Of a stretch of 64,000 nt of DNA, positions 37,440 through 38,332 are shown piece after piece. The stretch spans positions 1,426,001-1,490,000 of the forward strand of contig NZ_CP132294.1 in assembly GCF_030734285.1 (NCBI RefSeq). The letters are read 5' to 3'. Below the pieces are notes generated by a model. The model had not been told where the DNA came from. It ran no database searches and worked only from the letters and a program-made list of their open reading frames with translations. A program made the translations under genes and the position numbers. Every line of letters begins with the position of its first letter. Position 1 is the stretch's first letter. This DNA is from Natronococcus sp. AD-5 (GTDB lineage Archaea > Halobacteriota > Halobacteria > Halobacteriales > Natrialbaceae).

Positions 37440-37917
37440 CGCCCCACCACCGCCGCCGCGCGCGACTCGCTCATGCTATCAGTACAGTCCGAACACGTGA
37501 CCTTGAATATTGGCTTCACGTCGGTCGCGCGACGCCCCGTCCGACTTCGAGCGGGAGCCGAGCGCCTTCACGACGCGCCGTCGGCGCTCGCCCAATGAGG
37601 CGTGTGAACACACCGAGGAAACAGTTATGTCAGTTCCCGCAGACGATACGAACACGCACCGACGATGACCCCGACCCTACCACCGACCGAGCTTCCGTCT
37701 CCCGCACGCGCGGGAACGGGCGTTTGCGGATCCGTCCGCTATCGGAATGGATCCGCGATCGGTGGCTGTGGGCGGGGTAACTGACGGCCGTTTCGGCCGC
37801 CGTCCCGTCCGCGCCGCGCACGTTCGCGCTCGGCCGGACGGCTCACCTTTTTCCGGGACACGACTCGTGTGCCGGTACCGCGTCAGTCGCCGGCCAGCGG
37901 AAACTGCGCGGGGACGA
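37440..37917. other. Gene-free region
   Basis: 478 bases upstream of both the HerA-like gene (leftward) and the tRNA-like element. Frames here are arginine/proline-rich shadows. No hairpin or promoter stands out except the AT-rich part at 37495-37515. Confidence 0.45.
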
Positions 37918-37991
37918 CCCCCCGTGGTGTAGCCGGCCAACACGCGGACCCGAACGGGTCCGAGCGTCGAGTTCGATCCTCGACGGGGGGC
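37918..37991 (+). other. tRNA-like cloverleaf without a usable anticodon
   Basis: The sequence folds as a tRNA: acceptor CCCCCCG/CGGGGGG (37918-37924 with 37984-37990), TG, D-stem GTGT/ACAC, T-stem TCGAG/CTCGA with a canonical T-loop TTCGATC. Box A-like and box B-like sequences are present. The anticodon arm, however, is CGGAC/GTCCG around an eight-base loop CCGAACGG; it can zip further into a 7-bp stem with a GAAC tetraloop, and it has no U33. It therefore cannot decode normally. It ends two bases before the ATG at 37994. It may be a decayed tRNA or an RNA element with another role. Confidence 0.6.
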
Positions 37992-37993
37992 TC

Positions 37994-38332
37994 ATGAACC
38001 GACCGACCACCACCGTCGCGGCGACGCTCACCGTTCGCGTGCCCCTGCGCGCCTCCGGCAGCCTCGTCGACGGCGCAGCGAGCGTCGTCGATCGAATCGA
38101 TACCGTCGACAGCATCGACGACGTGACCGTCCAGAACATCTCGCCCGGTCTCAACGATACGGCCGTCGACTGTCGCGTCCGCCTCGAACTCGCGGGCGGC
38201 GAGCACGACGACGCGATCGCGAGATGCGAGCTCGAGCGCGGCGTGGGCGTCCTCGCGGTCGACGCCGTCCGATCCGTCGAGGGCGATCCGCCCGCCGTCG
38301 AGGTCGAATCCGAACGAGTCCGGACGAGCTAA
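37994..38332 (+). CDS. Conserved-looking small protein of unknown function
   Basis: A 112-residue protein with no recognised motif. It has an alternating strand/helix pattern (VAATLTVRVPLRASGSLVDG, SIDDVTVQNISPGLNDTAVD, LERGVGVLAVDAVRSVEG), suggesting a small alpha/beta fold. Composition is acidic and haloarchaeal, which supports it as real. The ATG is nearly fused to the tRNA-like element. Its stop overlaps the stop of the XPB-like gene by three bases, tail to tail. Confidence 0.68.
   Translation: MNRPTTTVAATLTVRVPLRASGSLVDGAASVVDRIDTVDSIDDVTVQNISPGLNDTAVDCRVRLELAGGEHDDAIARCELERGVGVLAVDAVRSVEGDPPAVEVESERVRTS

Follow-up and report, generated by a model that had tools for sequence, protein, structure and literature searches.

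The window analyzed here, i.e., the whole 64-kb stretch of Natronococcus DNA, contains a gene for a 112-aa protein that is preceded by a long leader and, directly before its ATG, by a tRNA-like element. The features of the locus are as follows:

37610..37633, plus strand: putative promoter with the BRE/TATA-like sequence ACACCGAGGAAACAGTTATGTCAG, conserved in Natrialbaceae alignments
37665..37784, plus strand: upstream ORF (uORF) of 39 codons encoding MTPTLPPTELPSPARAGTGVCGSVRYRNGSAIGGCGRGN, followed by a stop; a uORF is common in loci of the family
37799..37842, plus strand: leader hairpin GCCGTCC...GGACGGC with the conserved motif CGTCCGCGCCGCG (37806-37818), a conserved block
37848..37852, plus strand: attenuator-like U-tract TTTTT after the hairpin, within a conserved pyrimidine/U-rich block
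37890..37913, plus strand: flank CCGGCCAGCGGAAACTGCGCGGGG, conserved in the alignment
37918..37924, plus strand: 5' acceptor strand CCCCCCG, from sequence and comparison
37927..37943, plus strand: D-arm GTGT-AGCCGGCCA-ACAC; the GG of the D-loop is kept in 16/16 cloverleaf members
37945..37962, plus strand: hairpin CGGACCC-GAAC-GGGTCCG at the anticodon position, without an anticodon; loop size and sequence differ among species
37967..37983, plus strand: T-arm TCGAG-TTCGATC-CTCGA, which covaries and is conserved in every family except f17
37984..37991, plus strand: 3' acceptor strand CGGGGGG and discriminator C, from sequence and comparison
after 37991, plus strand: predicted tRNase Z cut, by analogy with a known t-element
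37994..38332, plus strand: 112-aa gene of an uncurated haloarchaeal family with a predicted ferredoxin-like fold (homologue search and AlphaFold2)

ARAGORN reports 37918-37991 (plus strand) as 'tRNA-???', i.e., an undetermined tRNA, and this call, together with the stems read from the sequence, coincides exactly with the cloverleaf proposed in the first-pass annotation. The structural details given there hold as well. All seven acceptor pairs are Watson-Crick, and the D-stem and T-stem are paired; the eight-base loop at the anticodon position (CCGAACGG, closed by the CGGAC/GTCCG stem in the window element) carries C in place of U33; the same region can zip into seven base pairs around a GAAC loop; and the discriminator C is followed by TC and then by the ATG at 37994, two bases after the element. 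The element lacks the 7-nt anticodon loop, U33 and readable anticodon of a functional tRNA, and the gathering score of the Rfam tRNA model (RF00005) is not reached at 37918. Across the window and 20 further loci, no Rfam family other than tRNA was matched. ARAGORN made only two calls when 40 order-2 Markov copies were scanned in place of the 64-kb window (approximately one false call per 1.3 Mb), so the call in the window is more than chance. The isolated 74 nt are mildly stable in RNAfold (z = -2.0), and their minimum-energy fold is not the cloverleaf; since the folding energy alone is indecisive, the case for the element is built on comparative evidence.

Comparison of the upstream DNA of 105 loci of the 112-aa gene family revealed, in 102 of them, a T-loop (TTC[GA]A) lying 14-30 nt ahead of the ATG, at a distance of 21-24 nt in nearly all. 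The distinct sequences number 92, and in these a complete or almost complete T-stem is closed by G53-C61; its types are interchangeable (TCGAG/CTCGA, CCGCG/CGCGG, CCGAG/CTCGG, and GCGCG/CGCGC), with 4.85 Watson-Crick pairs between own strands vs. 3.35 after swapping with a different T3 strand (n = 92). An acceptor partner with all seven Watson-Crick pairs occurs in 44/92 sequences, compared with 3.7 expected from strand swaps between species, while in approximately half of the sequences the acceptor contains a mismatch or its 5' strand is less certain. The spacer between the acceptor and the ATG measures 2-3 nt in 79 of the 92. In an alignment of 16 cloverleaf members, 96.1% of the cells are paired, and cells with double changes number 21 vs. 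6.8 in shuffled alignments, compensatory changes being present in the acceptor, anticodon-position and T stems. The lack of stems upstream of orthologous genes had been named beforehand as the result that would refute a cis-acting element; in this comparison, the stems are conserved and covary in many haloarchaeal families. Derivation from a decayed tRNA gene, or a chance palindrome, has practically no probability left: the lost anticodon and the resemblance of the D-arm to that of tRNA-Glu would fit decay, yet such an origin is refuted by the compensatory changes, the class-wide conservation of position and ATG spacing, and the rarity of false ARAGORN calls. As judged from sequence comparison, the tRNA mimic at 37918-37991 is genuine and conserved; it cannot decode, and it adjoins a start codon.

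Only the T-arm, the acceptor, and the distance to the ATG are universal. The D- and anticodon-like arms are kept only in Natrialbaceae; outside this family, the element is an acceptor/T-arm minihelix with a variable middle part. Among the Natrialbaceae relatives, the hairpin at the anticodon position is free to vary in both its length and its loop, so the anticodons assigned to relatives by ARAGORN (Glu, Asn, Gly, Asp, Arg, and Ala) are meaningless. In family f17 (L026, L079, and L100), the T-arm is lost and a related stem is kept, and genome G002 (L153:1500-1700) contains a decayed copy in which the T-arm of the element is deleted and the gene truncated, i.e., the gene and the element have, on the evidence of this remnant, decayed together. 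In two genomes of genus g9, a near-canonical tRNA-Glu(UUC) occupies the position of the element (the g9 copy scanned, L095, scores 59.1 bits with the Rfam tRNA model), and sister species have the minihelix there; tRNA-likeness itself thus appears interchangeable.

In these two g9 genomes (L154:1360-3175 and L155, minus strand, 3497-1973), the gene with its near-canonical tRNA-Glu lies next to clustered tRNAs and tRNA-like elements (Asp, Val, Ala, Asn or two Lys), together with several T-arm elements that carry long insertions. Extra gene copies were also seen (L197, L196, L199, and L200): in one, a tRNA-Glu-like element precedes the ATG and a tRNA-Gln-like element lies farther upstream, and in the rest a unit resembling tRNA-Gly(GCC) is located upstream, not directly before the ATG. 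A motif, AGAGRCATCGCT, occurs a little upstream of the element in several families (L067, L074, L081, L083, L084, and L088).

The retained D-loop GG in all 16 Natrialbaceae cloverleaf members and the near-canonical tRNA-Glu of two genomes could indicate that the tRNA-like RNA, once excised, is what the locus is there to make, in the form of a stable small RNA, and that the gene stands behind it only secondarily. This explanation is highly improbable: most families possess the minihelix alone, the T-loop being its sole conserved loop sequence, what is kept is the ATG spacing, and the element and the gene are lost together.

A second carrier was found in the Natronococcus genome by a pattern search for a T-loop located 13-16 nt before an ATG. 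Of the 39 matches, 30 were examined, and only two of these had a T-stem with five of five pairs, namely the window element and an element before the gene of a 116-aa DUF5658 membrane protein, with the same minihelix in front of the ATG:

L168 / G000:C1:432424-432815, minus strand: DUF5658 gene with minihelix, from the pattern search; homologous loci L203-L232

In 30/30 homologous DUF5658 loci (that of Natronococcus included), the T-arm directly precedes the ATG, with a spacer of 2-3 nt, and the spacer sequences CT, CTC, and GT are common to these loci and those of the 112-aa gene. The DUF5658 loci contain a conserved AT-rich block, CATAACAATA, approximately 85-90 nt upstream of the ATG and outside the element. 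A genome search with model R1 gave a single match in each of two genomes and no match in another; as 150 of more than 10,000 candidates were scored, absence elsewhere means little. On the strength of these alignments, at least two protein genes of haloarchaea, unrelated to each other, have a non-decoding tRNA mimic in front of the start codon.

The closest known counterpart precedes an rRNA. In Haloferax volcanii, a tRNA-like t-element lies directly upstream of 5S rRNA and is cut by tRNase Z, which generates the 5' end of 5S (PMC4326828, PMC3296008), and t-elements have been used in vivo to release RNAs via RNase P and tRNase Z (PMC4326828, PMC4946936). The 5S genes of Natronococcus are also preceded by a minihelix (CCGAT...CACGG-TTCGATT-CCGTG..ATCGG). 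Both kinds of element consist of an acceptor-like stem stacked on a T-arm with a canonical T-loop, the D/anticodon part of the 5S t-element being a short variable loop; an alignment of minihelices from the two protein genes and two 5S t-elements has a covariation score of 0.538 vs. 0.161 +/- 0.029 after shuffling. The RNA downstream of the 5S t-element begins right after the acceptor, and the geometry of the mRNA elements would fit such a start, with the ATG 2-3 nt past the acceptor. Unlike the 5S t-element, the mRNA element stands before the start codons of protein genes, is conserved class-wide, and ranges from a minihelix to a near-complete tRNA; in the window, it is located in a long leader with a uORF, and the cut there is predicted. 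In H. volcanii, several further elements predicted to be tRNA-like reportedly stayed uncut in vitro (work of Holzle et al. from 2012, in Biochimie), which calls for caution in assuming that the mRNA element is cut.

Relatives of the 112-aa gene are encoded in 226 of 391 Halobacteria genomes, with essentially none found outside Halobacteria. The AlphaFold2 model of the product (pLDDT 86) has a beta-alpha-beta-beta-alpha-beta order and matches many ferredoxin-like chains with Z of about 6-7, a generic similarity; according to the model, the protein has a ferredoxin-like fold. No fitting family was found in Pfam, NCBIfam or PHROGs, and a PDB sequence search returned nothing. NCBIfam EF-1beta matches occur in 6/81 family members, but the product is not an EF-1beta paralogue: the profile matches are half-length and permuted, no match is co-linear, and the hhalign value is 20%. 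The neighboring genes (HerA-like, XPB-like helicase, and TFB) are conserved only in Natrialbaceae; a functional partnership with the XPB-like helicase was rejected, as the two genes adjoin only in this family and the neighbors in Halorubrum differ. A phage origin was also discarded, a phage match not being found.

The product could be considered as a ligand of its own leader. Autoregulation through tRNA mimicry is known for bacterial thrS, and by this precedent the element might be an uncut translational operator, in which the AUG is masked or uncovered by a protein that binds tRNA, be it the gene product, a modification enzyme or a synthetase. The position of the stem, abutting the AUG in both gene families, and the small ferredoxin-like fold, compatible with RNA binding, fit such a role. 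We regard it as unlikely. The ferredoxin-like protein and the DUF5658 membrane protein are unrelated and nevertheless share the element, which argues against autoregulation by the product; recognition by a synthetase is disfavored by D and anticodon-position regions that vary freely; and the 5S counterpart is a processing signal.

A TATA-like site at positions -45..-19 of the gene is present in none of the 102 loci, so the gene does not look like one transcribed from a start at its own AUG as a leaderless mRNA. Promoter-like sequences occur approximately 280-410 nt upstream of the gene, analogues of the window sequence being CGACAAAACTTATTGT in family f12 and ATAGATTTAATA in Halorubrum. A uORF of 30-95 codons follows in 89/102 loci, often starting with MT or MI and ending with RAA, PTA or LAA; among uORFs ending in A, the stops TAA, TAG, and TGA are used about equally. 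In Natrialbaceae, the last codons are almost invariant at the nucleotide level (TCCGTCCGCGCCGCG plus any stop). The position of the stop is kept, and the peptide is without clear purifying selection; the uORF as a conserved protein was rejected, since the codon-position pattern in Halorubrum is not coding-like. As the interior of the peptide is not conserved in a coding-like manner, translation itself, rather than the peptide, may matter.

The uORF stop is located in the conserved leader hairpin, which is followed by the U-tract. Of 30 motif copies, 22 are followed by a stop and six more lie in uORFs that stop earlier; in some Natrialbaceae, the stop at the motif is lost and the uORF stops earlier. 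The hairpin strands pair better with their own partner than after swapping (a test that ignores relatedness), the leader has a minimum free energy z of -3.1, and its strands can pair alternatively: the flank at 37890..37913 could pair with the motif at 37806-37818 or with the 5' acceptor strand (CGGGG/CCCCG), and the swap tests favor such alternative pairing. A uORF and a hairpin with a U-tract make regulation likely, and the leader switch is treated as a possibility, given swap tests without correction for relatedness.

One such switch would be a ribosome-controlled attenuator, in which translation of the uORF covers the CGTCCGCGCCGCG strand, otherwise paired with the hairpin arm or the flank of the element, and thereby sets the outcome: termination at the U-tract, a sequestered acceptor strand or a formed tRNA-like element. 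The frequency of the uORF, the near-equal use of the three stops, the coupling of motif and stop, and the pairing and stability of the leader are all consistent with it, and the reading is compatible with, and additional to, cleavage of the element. Its probability is nevertheless low: the swap tests ignore relatedness, the peptide is not conserved in a coding-like manner, and the DUF5658 gene has a t-element but a short leader, which indicates that the core device does without the uORF.

Other systems resemble the element in part. It shares the cloverleaf, the D-loop GG, and the T-loop with tRNA genes, tRNA-Glu especially; unlike these, it lacks a usable anticodon in the window copy and most relatives, and the window copy is missed by the Rfam tRNA model. 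In the dicistronic transcripts of plants, a tRNA-like unit is joined to an mRNA as well; these are functional tRNA genes co-transcribed with mRNAs and linked to mobility (PMC8166872), whereas the haloarchaeal mimic is non-decoding, stands 2 nt before the AUG, and covaries class-wide. Mimicry of the acceptor and T-arm without decoding is common to plant viral tRNA-like structures and the tmRNA domain. The viral structures are located at 3' ends and serve replication and charging, while the haloarchaeal element continues into the mRNA; tmRNA needs SmpB, a charged acceptor that ends in CCA, and a tag ORF inside it, and these requirements do not apply here. A tmRNA-like reading, considered in view of the uORFs ending in AA, was rejected because the order of the parts is wrong: the uORF comes before the 5' acceptor strand, and at its 3' side the element continues into the gene.

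The first-pass annotation had suggested a cis-acting tRNA mimic recognized by tRNA enzymes and controlling the mRNA. This gains support from the stems at orthologous genes and the second gene family, as far as sequences go, and, by analogy, from Haloferax, where tRNA-processing enzymes cut such elements (PMC4326828, PMC3296008). We consider it rather probable that the element is an mRNA t-element whose predicted cleavage by tRNase Z yields a leaderless mRNA of the downstream gene; the reading is based on the conserved position, the covarying stems, the absence of a promoter at the gene, the second gene, and the architecture of the 5S t-element. Transcription would start at the promoter approximately 370 nt upstream of the gene, before the small uORF. 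The acceptor/T-arm part would be the processing signal for tRNase Z, and probably also for RNase P at the 5' side. Leaderless mRNA is the main translatable form in haloarchaea. In an uncut transcript, a 12-bp coaxial stem would end 2-3 nt before the AUG and leave no space for a Shine-Dalgarno site, and cleavage after the discriminator, in most species potentially 1-2 nt before the AUG, may affect translation accordingly. Leaderless mRNAs are defined by a leader of 0-5 nt and represent the main class (72%) in H. volcanii (PMC4983044); with 1-2 nt left, the product of the cut would fall within this definition. From the missing TATA-like site at the gene, the lack of room for a ribosome-binding site, and the t-element architecture, we infer release by tRNase Z. 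Either uORF translation or the leader hairpin might decide whether the tRNA-like fold forms. That the whole constitutes a class-wide device is conceivable and rather doubtful: the mimic would be cut by tRNase Z to produce leaderless mRNA on demand, its fold would be gated by uORF translation and competing hairpins, and the activation of the mRNA would report the capacity of tRNA processing or of translation.

If cleavage takes place as proposed, archaea would have a second route to leaderless mRNAs besides transcription that starts at the AUG, namely the cut of a tRNA-maturation enzyme, and the expression of particular genes would be tied to the tRNA-processing machinery. The t-element, known from a single rRNA, would extend to protein genes with class-wide conservation, with two gene families open to testing in haloarchaea, and mRNA t-elements may explain 'undetermined' tRNA calls in front of haloarchaeal genes.
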